NCBI GenBank assembly: GCA_947498025.1
Contig: CANMJR010000009.1
Coordinates: 1 to 64,000, forward strand
Direction: 5' to 3'
DNA length: 64,000 bases
From: Helicobacteraceae bacterium
Lineage (GTDB): Bacteria > Campylobacterota > Campylobacteria > Campylobacterales > Sulfurimonadaceae
A program made the translations under genes and the position numbers. Below the pieces are notes generated by a model. The model was not told the origin of the DNA. It saw only the letters and a list, made by a program, of their open reading frames with translations, and did not search any database. Within the stretch, counting starts at the first letter, position 1. Every line of letters starts with the position of its first letter. Positions 5,408 through 13,111 of this stretch are shown here, one piece after another.

Positions 5408-5911
5408 TTACACTCCTTGAAGTGTTACAATTCCCTGCCAGAGCAGTGCACTCAAAATTCCTGCAACAAATCCGGCAATAACATCGTCGCCGACTACGCC
5501 TAAACCGCCCTTTGTCTCTCTGTCTATTCTACCGATAATAGATGGTTTTGTGATGTCGAAATATCTAAAAAGCAAAAATGATAAGAGTGATTGAATCAAA
5601 AATCCATTCTCCCACATGCCAAGAGCATTGAAGTTTATGGTTATTGCAGGTGCAACGCTCAGAGCAAACCACATGCCGGCTAACTCATCGATTACTATGC
5701 GTTTATCGTCATGGATTCCGCTTATTTTTTCATATTTATCGATAGCTTTAATCGCGATAACGGTGACAAGAAGCGAGGCTAAAAAAAGAGTTTGTGCATC
5801 AAAAGCGATGAGTATCCACATGCCAAGAAAAAGAGCGACAATACTCCCCACAGTTCCGGGAGCTTTCGGTGCAAGTCCGCTGTAGCCAAGTGTTATAAAA
5901 AACCAGTTCAT
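5408..5911 (-). CDS. pgpA: Phosphatidylglycerophosphatase A
   Basis: Removes the phosphate from phosphatidylglycerophosphate to give phosphatidylglycerol at the inner membrane. 'GYSGLAPKAPGTVGS' near the N-terminus, 'IVIDELAGMWFAL' in the middle and 'GGLGVVGDDVIAG' near the C-terminus are the conserved PgpA motifs, the last with the Asp pair expected for metal binding. There are four hydrophobic segments in 167 aa, the normal family size. From memory, in Campylobacter pgpA sits directly next to the sat-like gene; here about 4 kb of restriction and toxin genes lies between them. Confidence 0.93.
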   Translation of the reverse strand: MNWFFITLGYSGLAPKAPGTVGSIVALFLGMWILIAFDAQTLFLASLLVTVIAIKAIDKYEKISGIHDDKRIVIDELAGMWFALSVAPAITINFNALGMWENGFLIQSLLSFLLFRYFDITKPSIIGRIDRETKGGLGVVGDDVIAGFVAGILSALLWQGIVTLQGV

Positions 5912-5983
5912 TTATTTCCTTTACATGTTAAAAAATTGTAATTTTATCGTGCAAGTGTAGTCAAAGAGCGGTTAAATTCTACT

Positions 5984-6242
5984 TTAGTTCATATTTTCAA
6001 AAAAATCATTTACTTCACACTCTAAAATATAGGCTATTTGATACAGATGTTTCATATTGAAATGCTGTTTTTTGAGATACAACTCTGACTGAGAAACTAA
6101 TCCTACTGATTTATGTCCTATTACTTGAGAAAGTTGAAGTTGTGAGAGACCCTTCAACATCCTCTTTTTTTTTAACATTAGAACCAATAAGTTTATAAAA
6201 ATCATCTATCTGATTTTCATCAATATCTTCAATCGTTCTCAA
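5984..6242 (-). pseudogene. XRE-type controller (C) regulator, frameshifted at an A9 tract
   Basis: Two overlapping reading frames together make one complete HTH protein. Frame 1 from TTG at 6242 reads 'RTIEDIDENQIDDFYKLIGS' then 'NVKKK'. Frame 2 continues 'KKKRMLKGLSQLQLSQVIGH' to 'ILECEVNDFFENMN'. They meet at a run of nine A (6165-6173 as T on the + strand); with eight A the gene would encode about 85 aa, the size of restriction-modification controller proteins. It is divergent from the methyltransferase gene, with two palindromic boxes between. The ORF track shows only the 73-aa second half. It could be a pseudogene, a slippage-controlled gene or a sequencing error. Confidence 0.7.
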
Positions 6243-6250
6243 TTATTACC

Positions 6251-6262
6251 TAGTTATTACTA
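6251..6262. promoter_or_regulatory. Likely controller-protein box 1
   Basis: TAGTTATTACTA is a 12-bp near-palindrome just upstream of the HTH gene start, matching the box at 6301 except for one base. Two such boxes between a divergent small XRE regulator and a methyltransferase gene are the usual C-box arrangement. Confidence 0.6.
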
Positions 6263-6300
6263 TTTCTTAAATTTTATTAAGATACAATTTTTTCTTCAAC

Positions 6301-6312
6301 TAGTAATTACTA
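6301..6312. promoter_or_regulatory. Likely controller-protein box 2
   Basis: TAGTAATTACTA is a perfect 12-bp palindrome. It begins exactly 50 bp from the first base of box 1, about five helical turns, so dimers on both boxes would lie on the same face of the DNA. It lies between the controller and the methyltransferase. Confidence 0.65.
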
Positions 6313-6400
6313 TGCGACTAAGGAAATTCTTGATAAAAACTTTCGATAATAAAATTAACATGCATTGTTTCTATGACTTTCTAATACAAATGAGTAAGAA

Positions 6401-7467
6401 GTGAAAGAAAAAGTTTTGAAGCTGGGTGAATTATTTTGTGGACCAGGAGGAATTGCTCTTGTGCACAAAACGCTCAAATACGCGATGAAAAAACAAATAC
6501 GAAATACAGCATAAAACATGTTTGGGCAAGTGATTATCACCTAGAAACATGTCAAACTTATCAACACAATTTTAAAAATGTAAAAGTGATTTGCAAAGAC
6601 ATAAAAGAATTAGATATTGATTCTTTAGGTGAAATTGATGCTTTTGCTTATGGATTTCCTTGTAACGATTTTAGCATTGTCGGGGAATCCAAAGGTTTTG
6701 ATGGGGAATTTGGAGGGCTTTATAAATATGGTGTCAATGTAATCAATAGGTACAACCCTTATTTTTTTATAGCCGAAAATGTTGGCGGGCTAGCAAGTGC
6801 CAACGAGGGCAAAGCATTCAAAAATATCTTACGAGATTTAGGAAATGCTGGAGCAGAAGGTTATGAACTAACGGTTCATAAATATAAATTTGAAGAATAC
6901 GGGATACCACAAAAACGGCATCGAATAATTATTGTGGGTATTGCAAAATCATTAAAAAAGAAATTTCAAGTGCCTGCACCTACACATTTAGATAATTATG
7001 TGAGTGTAAAAGAAACTTTTGAGAAAAAACCAATTCCTCTTGATGCCTACAATCATGAATTTACTACACAATCAAAAACAGTTGTAGAAAGATTAAAATA
7101 CATACAACCGGGACAAAACATTTGGCAAACAGAACTTCCAGAACACTTGCAGTTGAATGTCAAGGGTGCCAAATTAAGTCAGATATACAAAAGACTTCAC
7201 CCTGATCAACCTTCTTATACTATTACTGGGAGTGGAGGTGGTGGGACACATGGTTATCACTACTCCGAATATAGAGCTTTAACAAATCGTGAACGCGCCA
7301 GAATACAAACATTTCCTGATGATTTTATTTTTGTAGGCAAAAAAGAAAGTGTTCGACGGCAAATTGGTATGGCAGTTTCGCCCGTGATGTCTAAAATTAT
7401 CTTTGAAGCAGTTTTAAAAACATTAGCGGATATTGATTACCCTTCCACTCAAGCAAGATATTCGTAA
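6401..7467 (+). pseudogene. C5 cytosine DNA methyltransferase, frameshifted in motif I
   Basis: Would transfer a methyl group from SAM to C5 of cytosine and protect the host from the adjacent endonuclease. The frame from GTG at 6401 reads 'LGELFCGPGGIAL' (motif I, SAM binding) and then runs off frame. The rest is in the frame of the ORF-track entry (TTG at 6436). Adding one G near 6460-6462 joins them as 'GGIALGAQNAQ', giving 355 aa. Motif IV 'FPCNDFS' (Cys about 88), motif VI 'ENV' (about 126) and motif VIII 'QKRHR' (about 171) are present, then a target-recognition region and 'RALTNRERARIQTFP'. As written the ORF lacks motif I and should be inactive. Confidence 0.8.
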
Positions 7468-7475
7468 GAGGTAAT

Positions 7476-9101
7476 ATGAACTATTTAGTTCCATTTGATG
7501 ATTATCATAGACGAGTTTGGATGTTTCAAAGAAACATCCGTAAAATTTATCCTTGGAAAATTGCTCAAATTTTATCAATGGTTCATATGCAGCTTGAAAA
7601 TGATGTATGGGGTGGAAATCAATCAGTTCAAAATTCGTTTACAAGTAATTTGGAGCGCTTTGGATTAAAGAGAGAAGGTGTTCAATATGACCCACACAGC
7701 GGAGGAGCCAGAACATATTTTTCTCAGCTGGAAAGTCTTGGTTTATTATTTACACGAGATGACGGCTCTACTTGGCTCACAATCGCTGGACAAGATTTAG
7801 TCGAAAGCAACTTTGCTCCTGCTGAGATATTAAGAACGCAACTTTTGAATTATCAATACCCAAGTATTTACAGTCAAGTTGCAAATGTAAAGATTCACCC
7901 TTCAATTAAAATTAAGCCGTTCTTATTTGTACTTGAATTGCTTTTAGACCCAGAAATTGGGTACTTGACAGATGAAGAAATAGTTATTCCCGTTGTTTAT
8001 GGTCATACTCATAGATGTTTTAATGTATGTAAGCAAAAAATACTTTTGTTGAGAGCAGGAAACGATTTACTCAGTATTATAGACAATCCCGAAGAAGATT
8101 TATTTACACCTCGAACACGAGGCAGAACATCAACAGCTGCACTTGTAGATTTTAAAAACATAGCAAATACCTGTAAAAATTTTTTAGAATCGTGCAGTTT
8201 AGTATTATCTGTGCAAGCCCAAAGCACACACTCCAAACAAATCATTATAAATGAAGGGGTTTTGCCAGAAATTAAAAAAGCACTTTTAAATAAATCTTCT
8301 TTTATCCTTGTGCATAATGCAGAGTCATTTCAAAGAAAATATGGTGCTTGGAACAGAAATAAAGACACGAGAACTCTTATACGCGGAAGCGGAACAAATA
8401 TATCAAGAGGTGAACCGATTATTCACGCATTGTTTGCAGAATATGCTGGAAACAACCTTGTAGTTGATATGCCTGAAGATTTTGTAATTCAAGCTGTTGG
8501 TTATGGATTTGATAGGCAGCTTGTATTAAAAACCATAGAGCCATATCTTGTGAATTCATTGTCACTTTTTGAGCAAAAGTTCATAGAGCTTTCAACGGGT
8601 GGTATTTCAACTGCAAATGCTTTTGAAAAAGCCGTCAAATTGCTTTTTGAAGAACGGCTTCATTACAAAGCGGCTCATACTGGGCAAAGATATCGTGTAG
8701 GAAAAACCGGTGGTTATTCAGATGTTTTTATTCAAGAAATAAGTGGTCGTTTTTGCGCAATTATTGATACTAAAGCTAGTCCTAGATATAACATATCATC
8801 TAGCGACTATCATACTATGAAAAACTCTTATATTCCTTCAGTTCAAGAATTAGAGGAGTATTCAAATGAAGGACTTGGATTTTGCGCATATATTGCAGGA
8901 GGCTTTGAACCAGCAATAGACAAACGAGTTCAAGCTCTCAGTAATGAATCGGGATACAATTTCGTAGCAATTAAAGCATATGATTTATTGAAGTTATGCC
9001 AGCAAGAAATTTTGCCATCTCAACAAGAAAAGTTAACTGATACTTTCCGACTGAACAAATTGTTAACTATTCATGACTTTGAAATGATACATAGGAGCTG
9101 A
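7476..9101 (+). CDS. AlwI/FokI-like type II restriction endonuclease
   Basis: A 541-aa protein starting 8 bp after the methyltransferase. The C-terminal domain carries a PD-(D/E)xK nuclease site: 'GGYSDVF' (about 411-417) and 'AIIDTKAS' (about 427-434), then 'RYNISSSDYHTMKNSYI'. That order and spacing resemble the FokI cleavage domain ('VIVDTKA' and a following Tyr-Asn segment). The N-terminal 200 residues look like the winged-helix DNA-recognition part of AlwI-family enzymes. It is probably a type IIS enzyme that cuts outside an asymmetric site; the site cannot be read from sequence. The ORF is intact, unlike its partner methyltransferase. Confidence 0.7.
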   Translation: MNYLVPFDDYHRRVWMFQRNIRKIYPWKIAQILSMVHMQLENDVWGGNQSVQNSFTSNLERFGLKREGVQYDPHSGGARTYFSQLESLGLLFTRDDGSTWLTIAGQDLVESNFAPAEILRTQLLNYQYPSIYSQVANVKIHPSIKIKPFLFVLELLLDPEIGYLTDEEIVIPVVYGHTHRCFNVCKQKILLLRAGNDLLSIIDNPEEDLFTPRTRGRTSTAALVDFKNIANTCKNFLESCSLVLSVQAQSTHSKQIIINEGVLPEIKKALLNKSSFILVHNAESFQRKYGAWNRNKDTRTLIRGSGTNISRGEPIIHALFAEYAGNNLVVDMPEDFVIQAVGYGFDRQLVLKTIEPYLVNSLSLFEQKFIELSTGGISTANAFEKAVKLLFEERLHYKAAHTGQRYRVGKTGGYSDVFIQEISGRFCAIIDTKASPRYNISSSDYHTMKNSYIPSVQELEEYSNEGLGFCAYIAGGFEPAIDKRVQALSNESGYNFVAIKAYDLLKLCQQEILPSQQEKLTDTFRLNKLLTIHDFEMIHRS

Positions 9102-9255
9102 AACAAAAGGAAATTGCGATGCCTTGCAATTAAAAGGAAGTGAAGATTTAAAAATCCAATATGCTAAAAAATATTTTGAATGTTTAAATGACGCAAGCAT
9201 CACTTATGATTGTGTCAAAGATTACGGGGAGTTGATGGATAAAGTTTTGAGATAA
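9097..9255 (+). pseudogene. 3' remnant of a type III restriction (res) gene
   Basis: The frame ending at TAA 9253-9255 has no start but reads 'ETKGNCDALQLKGSEDLKIQ' and then 'YAKKYFECLNDASITYDCVK'. This matches the extreme C-terminus of type III restriction subunits, where the ExK of 'ETKG' belongs to the nuclease site. The similarity begins at the end of the type II endonuclease gene, so the type II cassette seems to have replaced or cut into an older type III system. Confidence 0.6.
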
Positions 9256-9282
9256 AATATTTTTTTGACATAAACATTTCAT

Positions 9283-9312
9283 GTGACATATCATCATAAA
9301 TATGGTATGATA
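9283..9312 (+). promoter_or_regulatory. Promoter and palindromic operator of the toxin-antitoxin pair
   Basis: GTGACA (9283-9288) and TATGAT (9306-9311) are spaced by 17 bp, a good sigma-70 promoter. TATCAT (9289-9294) and ATGATA (9307-9312) form an imperfect palindrome over the spacer and -10 box, placed as expected for antitoxin autorepression. An upstream TTGACA (9265-9270) could act as an alternative -35. Confidence 0.5.
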
Positions 9313-9341
9313 AAAGTATGATTTTTAGTACGAGGTGTTAG

Positions 9342-9590
9342 ATGATGGTCAGAAAAACAGTTGCTTTGAATGATGAACTTTTTAGAACTCTTGAATTCAG
9401 TGAACTTACAAAACAATATAACTCATTTTCAGAGTTGGTTTCAAATGCTCTTTTGCTGTTAATAGAAAAACAAAAAAAAGAGAAATACAAAAAAGCAATG
9501 ATAGAAGCTTCTCAAGATGAGCTCTACAAACAAGATATTTACGAAATAGAAAATGATTTTAAATACTCAGATTTAGAACTTATTAAATGA
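9342..9590 (+). CDS. Antitoxin of a MazEF-like pair
   Basis: An 82-aa protein starting 'VRKTVALNDELFRTLEFSEL', a short beta strand followed by helices as in ribbon-helix-helix antitoxins, with a charged C-terminal tail ('KYSDLELIK') of the type that binds the toxin. GAGG precedes ATG-ATG at 9342/9345. Its TGA overlaps the toxin ATG as ATGA, the usual coupling in toxin-antitoxin operons. It probably represses its own promoter through the palindrome at 9289-9312. The antitoxin is intact although the toxin gene is broken. Confidence 0.7.
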   Translation: MMVRKTVALNDELFRTLEFSELTKQYNSFSELVSNALLLLIEKQKKEKYKKAMIEASQDELYKQDIYEIENDFKYSDLELIK

Positions 9591-9923
9591 ATCAGTTTGA
9601 TATTTATTTAGCAGATTTGAACCCTATACAAGGGAAGAGAGCAGTCTGGAACAAGACCTGTGTTAATCATCTCTAACAACTATGAAAATTTATTAGATAT
9701 TGTAACTATCATTCCGATAACATCACTTAAAGATGGAAGAAAAATTTATCCAAATGAGTTACTTTTACAAGATGAGCTAGAAAAACCATCTCTATTATTG
9801 TGTCAACAAATTCGTACTATCTCAAAAAATAGACTCATAAAAAAATTAACTTCATTAAACGACATAAACAAGCAAAAACATCTACTGCAAGTACTATGTT
9901 TGAGATTTGAAACAATAGATTAG
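9587..9923 (+). pseudogene. MazF-like mRNA interferase toxin, frameshifted
   Basis: Starts 'MNQFDIYLADLNPIQG', the classic MazF N-terminus, but one extra base near 9634-9639 throws the frame, so it stops after 'NKTCVNHL'. Removing one base restores 'EQSGTRPVLIISNNY' and joins the ORF-track entry at 9660-9923, giving about 111 aa, the normal length. MazF toxins cleave mRNA; here the catalytic N-terminal strand region is separated from the rest, so the toxin should be inactive unless the indel is a sequencing error. Confidence 0.75.
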
Positions 9924-9937
9924 AGTTTTTGCATTTC

Positions 9938-11128
9938 CTATGTCAGTGATGTAGTTTGATAGAGTTTCATCAACTCTTGGTAAAAATCTTTTTCTGTATG
10001 TGTTTCTATTAGCCCCTCTACAGGCAAAAGGTCGTAGTAGAGTCTGTCCAAATTTTTAAATCTGTTTGGAAATAGTTTGGAGAGTAAAAAGGCTGAAATC
10101 TCTTTTCTCATGAGCACTGCAGGCGGCAAAAGCCCCATCTCTAACAGCTCTAAAATAGAGTCTGAATGGTAAGAGATTTGGTGGTGCTGCCCATGCGGAC
10201 AGGTGTTTTTGCTAACAAGGGTCGTGCACTGATTGCAGTAAACATACTCGCTTGCAACCTGTATATCTATCTCTATTCCAACGACTTTGTCTATGATAGA
10301 TTTGTTTGAGTTGCAATCATAAAACATCCCAAGCCCTGCATGATTCCTGCCGATTGTCAGTCTGTCACAGCCATAATTCTTTGCAACAATCGCATCAATA
10401 ATTATCTCGTTATAACCTGCAAAAACATAGCTGTTTATAAGTGGAACTACAACAACACGATTTTTTGGCAGAAAATTTGATATAAAAAAGTCAAGAGATT
10501 CTTTTCTAATTTCATAATCTAAATTTCCACTGTTGTATGGCTTTAATAAAAATATTACGAGCAGGTCTGTAGTGTCTAAAGTTTGTCTAATAAGACGTTC
10601 GTGTGCGCGGTGAAGAGGGTTTGCAGCCATGAAGAGTGAACTTGTATGTTTTGCATTAATCAAAGTTTTAAACTCATCAATTATCTTTTTATTTTCATTT
10701 GAAGCTCTATTTAGCAGGGTATATTCACCGCTAATTGCATAGGAACCAATTCTTTTAGTAGTCGCGATTACACCCGGATGCGTCTCATCATGCGTACCAT
10801 ATATATGTTTGGTTCTATCTTTGGCATTTATTTTAAACACTTCATCAACAATTAGTGAGGCATAAGGAATTTTTTCACAAAGAATGGTTATCTCTTCGCC
10901 TTTTTTCAGTGATTTCAGTACCTCTTCATTCATAGCTCCCGAAGGTGCTAATATAAAAGGAAATGGAAAAGTTTTCCCGTTTATCAAACCTGTTCTTAAA
11001 ACCTCTTGGCTCTCTTTTTCTCCCATCAGCCCAGTCGCGGGGTACAAAAGCCCATCTTTTACCAGTTCGAGTGCCGAAGCCGCCTCTTTATCTATTAAGA
11101 GTGTTTTATTTTTTCTTGATGATGTCAT
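9938..11128 (-). CDS. ATP-sulfurylase-like protein with degenerate active site
   Basis: A 396-aa protein with the two-part layout of sulfate adenylyltransferase: an N-terminal PUA-like domain, then the nucleotidyltransferase domain. 'NPLHRAHE' keeps the HxGH-type His pair and the Zn site 'YCNQC...CPH' is present. Other signature residues are changed: the usual QTRNP is 'MAANP', GRDHAG is 'GRNHAG', MRYAGP is 'YVFAGY', and the SGT..R near the end is 'HSDSIL'. Sulfate binding is therefore doubtful; it may use another substrate or act as a regulator. It overlaps the HP1021-like gene by 23 nt. As I recall, an equivalent gene is annotated as possible sulfate adenylyltransferase in C. jejuni (Cj1609). 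Confidence 0.75.
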   Translation of the reverse strand: MTSSRKNKTLLIDKEAASALELVKDGLLYPATGLMGEKESQEVLRTGLINGKTFPFPFILAPSGAMNEEVLKSLKKGEEITILCEKIPYASLIVDEVFKINAKDRTKHIYGTHDETHPGVIATTKRIGSYAISGEYTLLNRASNENKKIIDEFKTLINAKHTSSLFMAANPLHRAHERLIRQTLDTTDLLVIFLLKPYNSGNLDYEIRKESLDFFISNFLPKNRVVVVPLINSYVFAGYNEIIIDAIVAKNYGCDRLTIGRNHAGLGMFYDCNSNKSIIDKVVGIEIDIQVASEYVYCNQCTTLVSKNTCPHGQHHQISYHSDSILELLEMGLLPPAVLMRKEISAFLLSKLFPNRFKNLDRLYYDLLPVEGLIETHTEKDFYQELMKLYQTTSLT

Positions 11129-11993
11129 ATTTTTTTCGTTTTTCCCATAAACTTTTTCTGCTTATTCCTAGTTTTTTAGAGAGCTCTGTGTCCGGAAATT
11201 TGTGTTGATAATTTAAGATTACAAATTTTACATAATCCTCTATCGGAAGAATTTCTCCCTGATCAAATATGTTGTTCTCGCTCTTTATCTCTAAAAGTTT
11301 ATACTCAACATCATCAATTTTATCAGTGCTTGCAATAATTGCCTGTTTATCGGCAATCAAGTCACAAAAAGGTTTTCTGTTCGCTTTTTTTAGAACTTGA
11401 AAGTCTATGATATAGATTATGCAATTTTGAGACATTGCGTCTATTTTTGCCATGGCTTTTGGGTCGTTGAGTGTTACAAATTGTATAGGAAGATTCATTT
11501 TAGCGGCATATTCAAAAGCAAAAGCATCCGAATACTTTTGAAAACTCGACGAGATAAATACAGGAAGCTCTATCTCCTCATGTTTAAACTCATTACTGAT
11601 TGAAGAGAAACTGTGTGTTAAATAGCTCTCATACGCCTCATTTCTTTTTTTTACCTTCTCGTAATCTTGATAATGGTCTATTTTTCTGATTAACTCTTCT
11701 ATCATAAAGGGCTTGAGAATATAATCTTTTGCACCTGCACTGAGTGGTTTTGAAACAGTGTCGTTGCTGATATAAGAAACCATTAAAATAACGATTGACT
11801 TTTTAAATGTCTCTATAACAGGATTAAAATCTTGTCCGTTTATATTTGTAGAGAGTAAAACCACATCATAATTTGTACTTTTTATCGCATCTTTTGTGGA
11901 TGTACACAATTCACATGTGTGACCTTGTTCGCCTAGTTTAGTTGCAATGCTTTGCGCTAAATAAACTTCATTTTCTATAATAAGTATTTTCAA
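11106..11993 (-). CDS. HP1021/Cj1608-type atypical response regulator
   Basis: A 295-aa protein with an N-terminal receiver domain (about 1-115), a middle domain, and a C-terminal helix-turn-helix ('LSKKLGISRKSLWEKRKKYD'). The phosphoacceptor Asp is replaced: 'YDVVLLSTN' has Ser at position 48, as reported for H. pylori HP1021, an orphan regulator of replication initiation and redox genes. Its position next to ispDF matches HP1020/HP1021 and Cj1607/Cj1608. It starts inside the ispDF stop region (4-nt overlap) and runs 23 nt into the sat-like gene, so the three are probably one operon. It likely works without phosphorylation. Confidence 0.85.
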   Translation of the reverse strand: MKILIIENEVYLAQSIATKLGEQGHTCELCTSTKDAIKSTNYDVVLLSTNINGQDFNPVIETFKKSIVILMVSYISNDTVSKPLSAGAKDYILKPFMIEELIRKIDHYQDYEKVKKRNEAYESYLTHSFSSISNEFKHEEIELPVFISSSFQKYSDAFAFEYAAKMNLPIQFVTLNDPKAMAKIDAMSQNCIIYIIDFQVLKKANRKPFCDLIADKQAIIASTDKIDDVEYKLLEIKSENNIFDQGEILPIEDYVKFVILNYQHKFPDTELSKKLGISRKSLWEKRKKYDIIKKK

Positions 11994-13111
11994 ATTAGTG
12001 TCCAGTCAAAATATTTTAAATTTGCATTTGCAATTACGCAAACACCTTCACTTCTGCCTATAAAACCTAGCTTCTCGGTTGTTGTGGCCTTTATGTTCAC
12101 TCTGCTCGCATCTATATTTAAAATATTAGCAAGCGTTTTCCTCATTTGTGGTTTATACAAGCTCAATTTTGGTGTCTGTGCAGCGATGGTTAAATCTATA
12201 TTTACTATTACAAAGCCAAGGTTGTAGATATTAGTAACAACTTTTGTTAAGAGCTTTTTTGAATCTATCCCCTTGTATATGTCGTCACTGTCTGGAAATA
12301 TCATGCCTATATCGCCCATTCCGGCAGCTCCCAAAAGTGCATCTATGAGTGCATGGATAGCCACGTCGCCATCGCTGTGCGCTTTAAAACCAAACTCTGA
12401 TTCAATCTTCACTCCGCAGAGGAACATTGCACCTTTGTCATCAAAAGCATGTACATCCATACCGGTTCCGCTAAGCGTATCGGAGGATGGTTTATTTAAA
12501 CATGTGAGTAGATTTAAATCTTTTATAGTGGTGATTTTATGTGCGTCATTTTCACCCAAAATGAACTCTCTGCTCCCTCCATAGGCAACTATTGCACTGC
12601 TCTCGTCTGTAAATTCTTCGTCACTCATAAGAGCATTTTTTAGGATTTGTGTGCGAGAGAGTTGGGGAGTTTGTACTCTTTTTACCTTCTCTCTGTCAAT
12701 GGTCGCATTTTCGTAAACAACGGTATCGTTTACTTTTAGATAGGGCACAACTGAGTCGCTGCTGCCCATTTTGTCAATGATTGAGCGAATGAGTTTTTCA
12801 CTCACACAGGAACGGGCAATGTCGCTTACAAGAACAAACTCGGTATTTGCCTCGGCAAGGGCATTTTTGAGTGACTCTTGTCTTGTTTTTGCGCCGCATA
12901 CAAAGGTGTAGTCACTGTAATTTTTCATAAATTCTAAGTCATCAGGGGAGGAGGTTATGACGATTTTATTGAAAAGTTTTGTTTTTTCGAGTCTATCTGC
13001 TACAAATTGCCATAGAGGTTTATGTCCTATTCTGAGCCACTGTTTCTTAACATCGAGTTCAAAACGAGTAGAACTGCCGGCAGCCAGTAAAATAAGTGTA
13101 ATATCAGACAA
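11990..13111 (-). CDS. ispDF: Bifunctional IspD/IspF
   Basis: Makes two steps of the non-mevalonate isoprenoid pathway in one protein: CTP-dependent cytidylyl transfer to MEP, and cyclisation to MEcPP. The N-terminal IspD half begins 'ITLILLAAGSSTRFELDVKK' with 'RVQTPQ' later. The IspF half starts near residue 215 with 'GMDVHAFD' and has 'HSDGDVAIHALIDALLGA', the metal-binding and active-site region. The 373-aa fusion is typical of Campylobacterota. It is the first gene of the ispDF-regulator-sat operon. Confidence 0.95.
   Translation of the reverse strand: MSDITLILLAAGSSTRFELDVKKQWLRIGHKPLWQFVADRLEKTKLFNKIVITSSPDDLEFMKNYSDYTFVCGAKTRQESLKNALAEANTEFVLVSDIARSCVSEKLIRSIIDKMGSSDSVVPYLKVNDTVVYENATIDREKVKRVQTPQLSRTQILKNALMSDEEFTDESSAIVAYGGSREFILGENDAHKITTIKDLNLLTCLNKPSSDTLSGTGMDVHAFDDKGAMFLCGVKIESEFGFKAHSDGDVAIHALIDALLGAAGMGDIGMIFPDSDDIYKGIDSKKLLTKVVTNIYNLGFVIVNIDLTIAAQTPKLSLYKPQMRKTLANILNIDASRVNIKATTTEKLGFIGRSEGVCVIANANLKYFDWTLI

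Follow-up and report, generated by a model that had tools for sequence, protein, structure and literature searches.

The window analysed here is a stretch of 64,000 nucleotides from Helicobacteraceae bacterium (assembly GCA_947498025.1, contig CANMJR010000009.1, positions 1 to 64,000). On its minus strand, an open reading frame at 9938..11128, as located in the initial annotation, starts with an ATG at 11128, terminates with a stop codon ending at 9938 and encodes a protein of 396 amino acids. This protein belongs to an ATP-sulfurylase-like family of the Campylobacterota for which we use the name SATL. According to Pfam and AlphaFold, the product of 9938..11128 consists of a PUA-like domain, a HUP nucleotidyltransferase-fold domain, a Zn domain and a C-terminal extension. 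Matches to PF01747 (ATP-sulfurylase, E=7e-52) and PF14306 (PUA_2, E=4.5e-20) were obtained. When scored with the two NCBIfam Sat models, the protein reached 204.3 bits (cut-off 387) and 153.8 bits (cut-off 322.95) and missed both cut-offs. Three true Campylobacterota Sats, used as controls, reached 385-422 bits with the first model and 278-328 bits with the second, so that some of the controls also fell narrowly below the cut-offs.

The AlphaFold model (mean pLDDT 83.8) predicts an ATP-sulfurylase fold, with values of about 64-65 across residues 261-280, the region of the GRDHAG loop, and below 50 for the last 7 residues. The closest PDB folds found by Foldseek were 8a8d and 1v47 (TM 0.79-0.84 by target length), the Zn-type Sats of Methanothermococcus thermolithotrophicus and Thermus thermophilus, respectively. 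SATL resembles these enzymes in its predicted fold, in its Zn ligand pattern and in the HxxH motif but, at 25-27% identity, differs from them by altered QTRN, MRYAGP, GRDHAG and SGTxxR motifs, by an additional C-terminal tail of 45 amino acids and by having no sulfate-activation neighbours.

Alignment with the solved Sats bore out the four motif changes described in the initial annotation. The QTRNPxHRAHE motif is degenerate and reads FMAANPLHRAHE (F-MAANP-LHRAHE, residues 166-177; 10598..10633, minus strand), MRYAGP has become YVFAGY (residues 234-239; 10412..10429, minus strand), GRDHAG is present as GRNHAG (residues 260-265; 10334..10351, minus strand) and SGTxxR is lost, HSDSIL standing in its place (residues 321-326; 10151..10168, minus strand). 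One detail has to be corrected: in GRNHAG the Arg (R261) is kept and the Asp alone is changed. The nucleotide-binding HxxH motif is retained as HRAH, and so are the Zn-finger residues C298-x2-C301-x8-C310-P-H312, as had been noticed before. The latter form part of a putative Zn site, C298-x2-C301-x8-C310-P-H312-G-x-H315-H316-[HQ]317 (10178..10237, minus strand). The extension of about 45 amino acids (9941..10075, minus strand) ends with FY..LM.LYQTTSLT and is not found in true Sat when the sequences are aligned.

Genomic context of the gene

The SATL gene follows two genes on the same strand: that of IspDF, the first of a conserved operon (11990..13111, minus strand; Pfam YgbB E=2.4e-59, IspD E=3.3e-32), and that of a CemR/HP1021-type atypical response regulator (11106..11993, minus strand; Pfam Response_reg E=7e-10). 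The pgpA gene, which is normally directly downstream of SATL, is found at 5408..5911 on the minus strand (Pfam PgpA E=2.3e-36). This order, ispDF-cemR(HP1021)-SATL-pgpA, is kept in nearly all Campylobacterota families sampled.

In the window, about 4 kb are inserted exactly between SATL and pgpA (5912-9935). The insert carries a C5-cytosine methylase gene, a gene for a 541-aa partner, a small possible antitoxin gene and a PemK/MazF-like toxin gene. The 541-aa protein gave no match with Pfam; by its position it may be restriction-endonuclease-like. In the nearest relative (L082, 94% DNA identity over SATL-cemR), SATL and pgpA lie about 5 nt apart.

The end of cemR overlaps the start of SATL by 23 nt in the window (11106-11128). 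The SATL ATG is placed in this same way, with 23 nt of overlap, in 150 of 169 loci, a good number of which are closely related, and in 47 of the 62 independent clusters where cemR is the neighbouring gene; such conservation suggests translational coupling. The overlap with a regulator gene claimed by the initial annotation was thus confirmed, while the description of that regulator as essential-type is too strong, as cemR has been deleted viably in C. jejuni and A. butzleri (PMC11334517). As an atypical orphan regulator, CemR controls energy metabolism; the way in which it perceives its signal has yet to be resolved (PMC11334517, PMC12632262).

CemR was found in 12 of the 13 SATL-less genomes examined, so that SATL is no general requirement for CemR. 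The exception, G007 (f6 g12), is without a full-length CemR homologue, which could be due to an incomplete assembly or to joint loss. In two Sulfurospirillum-like genomes (L046, L047), SATL lies outside the cemR operon, flanked by a small lipoprotein-like gene on one side and by a divergently oriented queH on the other.

Evolutionary-rate covariation gave partial r values for SATL of 0.19 with CemR, 0.22 with IspDF and about 0 with PgpA. As CemR is not singled out against IspDF, covariation was rejected as proof of a SATL-CemR pairing. The idea that SATL supplies redox cysteines absent from CemR was also abandoned: 162 of 171 CemR sequences have C27, and cysteine counts are not cleanly tied to the presence of SATL. 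A fusion of the two genes was discarded as well, as the extra length of the L187 and L193 frames is due to N-terminal low-complexity extensions. With neither rate covariation nor cysteine counts in its favour, the link to CemR is carried by operon order and by the overlap.

Distribution and constraint in the SATL family

PF01747 was found in 239 of the 298 Campylobacterota genomes sampled, nearly always as a single SATL-type copy; SATL itself is present in about 238 of them, and a profile search agrees. A true Sat occurs alone in G122 and together with SATL in G120, G162, G216 and G280, and G249 has a second, weak PF01747 match. These true Sats belong to the same Pfam family as SATL but keep all motifs intact and form a separate clade, the two groups being split in the tree by one branch of about 2.8 changes per site with a support of 100. 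The QTR triplet is absent from 58 of 58 distinct aligned SATL members and present in 7 of 7 true Sats. The motif changes, which the initial annotation had allowed might be unique to this strain, are therefore class-wide.

Distances between SATL sequences correlate with those of Mrp (r 0.88) and IspDF (r 0.84), as expected for vertical descent. SATL is missing from the Helicobacter-like and Sulfurospirillum-like lineages, except that the two Sulfurospirillum-like genomes mentioned above do carry it. Its apparent confinement to the Campylobacterota is based on the best 80 of 520 contig matches and on a plasmid search. No relative was found in the viral contigs searched, and plasmid records contained one SATL only, from Sulfurovum, the remaining matches being Sat-like with at most about 31% identity; a viral or plasmid origin was rejected on these grounds. 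The record concerned (L226, NZ_CP087125.1, 395 kb, labelled plasmid) bears the Sulfurovum mangrovi ispDF, cemR, SATL and pgpA genes at its end, so that it could be a chromid or part of a chromosome.

Conservation was ranked over 67 SATL clusters formed at 75% identity, ranks being given out of the 396 positions. Twelve residues are invariant in 67/67 clusters, namely C298, C301, C310, P311, H312, H315, E177, P335, P336, R341, S345 and Y383, and conservation in the family is strongest at the putative Zn site. The dimer interface of Zn-type Sats is made by domain III, in which their Zn site lies (PMC10322725). The C-terminal tail is also constrained (F382 in 66/67 and Q391 in 59/67 clusters, besides the invariant Y383).

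Sulfate is neutralised by R421 and R522 in human PAPSS1, which also requires H425 and H428 (PMC11697783). The SATL position equivalent to R421, A169 (the Arg of QTRN), shows fair conservation, yet of an Ala, found in 55/67 clusters, Arg being present in at most one. The other positions of the old motifs vary: M167 (the Gln of QTRN) ranks 215 and A168 (the Thr) 365; R261 (the Arg of GRDHAG) ranks 250, with Gln in 35/67 clusters and Arg in 10/67; and L326 (the Arg of SGTxxR) ranks 283, with Arg in 4/67 clusters only. Across the family, the equivalent of GRDHAG is mostly GQNHxG and is unrecognisable in several f2 genomes. The HIGH region is well kept, with H176 in 65/67 clusters (rank 22), E177 in all of them, R174 in 63/67, R181 in 64/67 and P171 in 65/67. 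The first residue of HxxH is His in 55 clusters, Asn in 7 and Thr in 5, and the second His is found in 65/67; in L060, a genus-level member, HxxH is replaced by TxxQ.

At five loci (L187, L191, L192, L193 and L194), the PUA-like N-terminus is eroded, shortened, or preceded or replaced by long low-complexity sequence, the Zn domain and the tail being intact. Interrupted copies of SATL, with stops in frame or with a broken frame, occur at L188, L189, L190 and L195 (G049, G124 and G262; a weak remnant in G207), which suggests either that some lineages lost the gene recently or that the assemblies contain errors.

Sulfate activation in Campylobacterota genomes

CysD and APS reductase (TIGR02055, E<=1e-20) were searched in the same 298 genomes and found in 84 and 49 of them, respectively, and CysD was encoded in all 49 genomes with APS reductase. 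Among the roughly 238 SATL genomes, APS reductase was present in 31 of 66 with CysD against 0 of about 172 without it (Fisher p ~1e-20, shared ancestry not being corrected for). From these counts, SATL is never the sole sulfurylase feeding an APS reductase, and a role as stand-in sulfurylase where CysDN is absent was rejected. In the source genome of the window, contig C44 carries the genes for CysD and CysN, and C50 a CysH-like frame that fell short in the strict APS-reductase search. No APS kinase adjoins SATL, whereas the true Sat, by sequence inspection, adjoins an APS-kinase-like gene at both loci read (G122 and G162), with a CysQ-like gene also in L063.

Several published gene inventories bear on these proteins. 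A 2015 review of Sulfurimonas listed four species that have a Sat-type ATPS but no AprBA, and assigned this ATPS to assimilation (PMC4584964); a lone 'conspicuous' sat was reported for the Zeitz epsilonproteobacterium (PMC4674564), both Sat and CysDN for S. hydrogeniphila (PMC7952632), and in Nautilia an 'Aps', described as 'sulfate adenylyltransferase', was assigned to energy metabolism (PMC10092268). Plausibly, all these entries are misannotated SATL. In the open-licence literature, no paper recognising SATL as a non-sulfurylase was found.

In Campylobacter jejuni, Cj1609, annotated as sulfate adenyltransferase, lies downstream of ispDF (Cj1607) and of Cj1608/CemR (PMC4435418, PMC10077673). 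From the gene order and the class-wide occurrence of the family, Cj1609 is the probable counterpart of SATL. All four Campylobacter species studied by TraDIS have it in their core genome, but it is essential in C. jejuni and C. coli only; polarity on pgpA is not discussed in that paper (PMC10077673).

Because SATL forms a separate clade, because CysD accompanies every APS reductase and because the source genome has both CysD and CysN, we consider it very unlikely, as far as sequences can tell, that SATL is an ATP sulfurylase. That it is nevertheless a genuine divergent one, in keeping with its annotation and with the view taken for Sulfurimonas (PMC4584964), is highly improbable: the fold and overall similarity, the retained HxxH and the R261 of the window copy would fit, but the residues of the sulfate site are changed and variable, no SATL is the only sulfurylase upstream of an APS reductase, and the neighbouring APS kinase of true Campylobacterota Sat is lacking. 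The initial annotation had suspected that the name Sat is misapplied, and this name is probably wrong; RefSeq gives it, as 'sulfate adenylyltransferase', to the Sulfurovum protein mentioned above.

Possible functions of SATL

We propose that the SATL family descended from a Zn-type ATP sulfurylase and has lost the sulfurylase activity. The Zn domain, which is the dimer-interface domain in Thermus and Methanothermococcus Sat, would, jointly with the tail, keep a dimer together, contact a partner or do both, and the old nucleotide pocket would either bind a phosphate-containing ligand without turnover or be vestigial. Since SATL is probably co-translated with CemR, its most likely job would be to tune or stabilise CemR, or to inform it of the state of a ligand or metal. 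An analogy, and no more, is offered by NadR-type proteins, where a regulator is coupled to an NMN adenylyltransferase domain: a HUP nucleotidyltransferase fold is used in regulation there too, but SATL shares with them neither the fusion nor a common sequence family.

At the sequence level, this proposal agrees with the loss of the sulfate and PPi residues, with the Zn domain being the most constrained region, with the new conserved tail, with class-wide vertical inheritance and with the coupling to cemR. Taken as a whole, an ex-sulfurylase without sulfurylase activity, put to new use as a dimeric Zn-site partner or sensor made together with CemR, has, in our judgement, about an even chance of being right. 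Between the different nucleotidyltransferase and the sensor protein that the initial annotation had considered, the drifting phosphate-binding motifs tip the balance somewhat toward a non-catalytic SATL, which we hold to be rather probable. That SATL acts with CemR is a more tentative claim, rated somewhat below even. The CemR found without SATL in 12 of 13 genomes and the SATL found outside the operon in two Sulfurospirillum-like genomes both count against it.

The near-invariance of P171, R174, H176, E177 and R181 goes beyond the needs of a pure scaffold. It counts against the explanation that we prefer and is compatible with a ligand-binding or altered-substrate role. For this reason, the main rival is an active nucleotidyltransferase that uses a new, non-sulfate acceptor through the retained HxxH pocket and is possibly essential in some species, which we regard as rather unlikely. 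Besides these HIGH-region residues, the Asn or Thr at the first His position could speak for it, resembling the TxGH motif of other HUP enzymes. A weak Pfam match of SATL to citrate lyase ligase, below the cut-off, and the TraDIS essentiality of Cj1609 (PMC10077673) point the same way. Against such an enzyme, the Arg of SxTxxR and the GRDH segment, which hold phosphate in relatives, drift freely, HxxH is absent in L060, and the gene is missing in Helicobacter-like and Sulfurospirillum-like lineages and broken in G049, G124 and G262.

The operon order conserved throughout the class and a rate covariation with IspDF as high as with CemR would equally suit a structural or regulatory helper of IspDF and PgpA, acting in isoprenoid and phospholipid supply and not on CemR. 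However, no sequence feature of SATL points to lipids, the partial covariation with PgpA is about 0 and the insertion cuts pgpA off from SATL in the window; we find this helper improbable.

To return to the preferred reading of SATL as a partner of CemR, its most specific form is that SATL is an unrecognised signal-input partner, which senses a nucleotide or phosphate ligand, or Zn or redox state at CxxC...CPHGxHHH, and passes this state to CemR. We see this form as unlikely; if true, SATL would be the input of an atypical response regulator that occurs throughout the Campylobacterota and for which no kinase is known. More generally, genome papers have listed under sulfate activation a gene that is carried by most of a bacterial class and that probably has no part in this process. 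As the probable counterpart Cj1609 is essential in C. jejuni and C. coli (PMC10077673), the real function of SATL bears on the physiology of these pathogens, and with the coupling of SATL to CemR, how CemR perceives its signal becomes directly testable.
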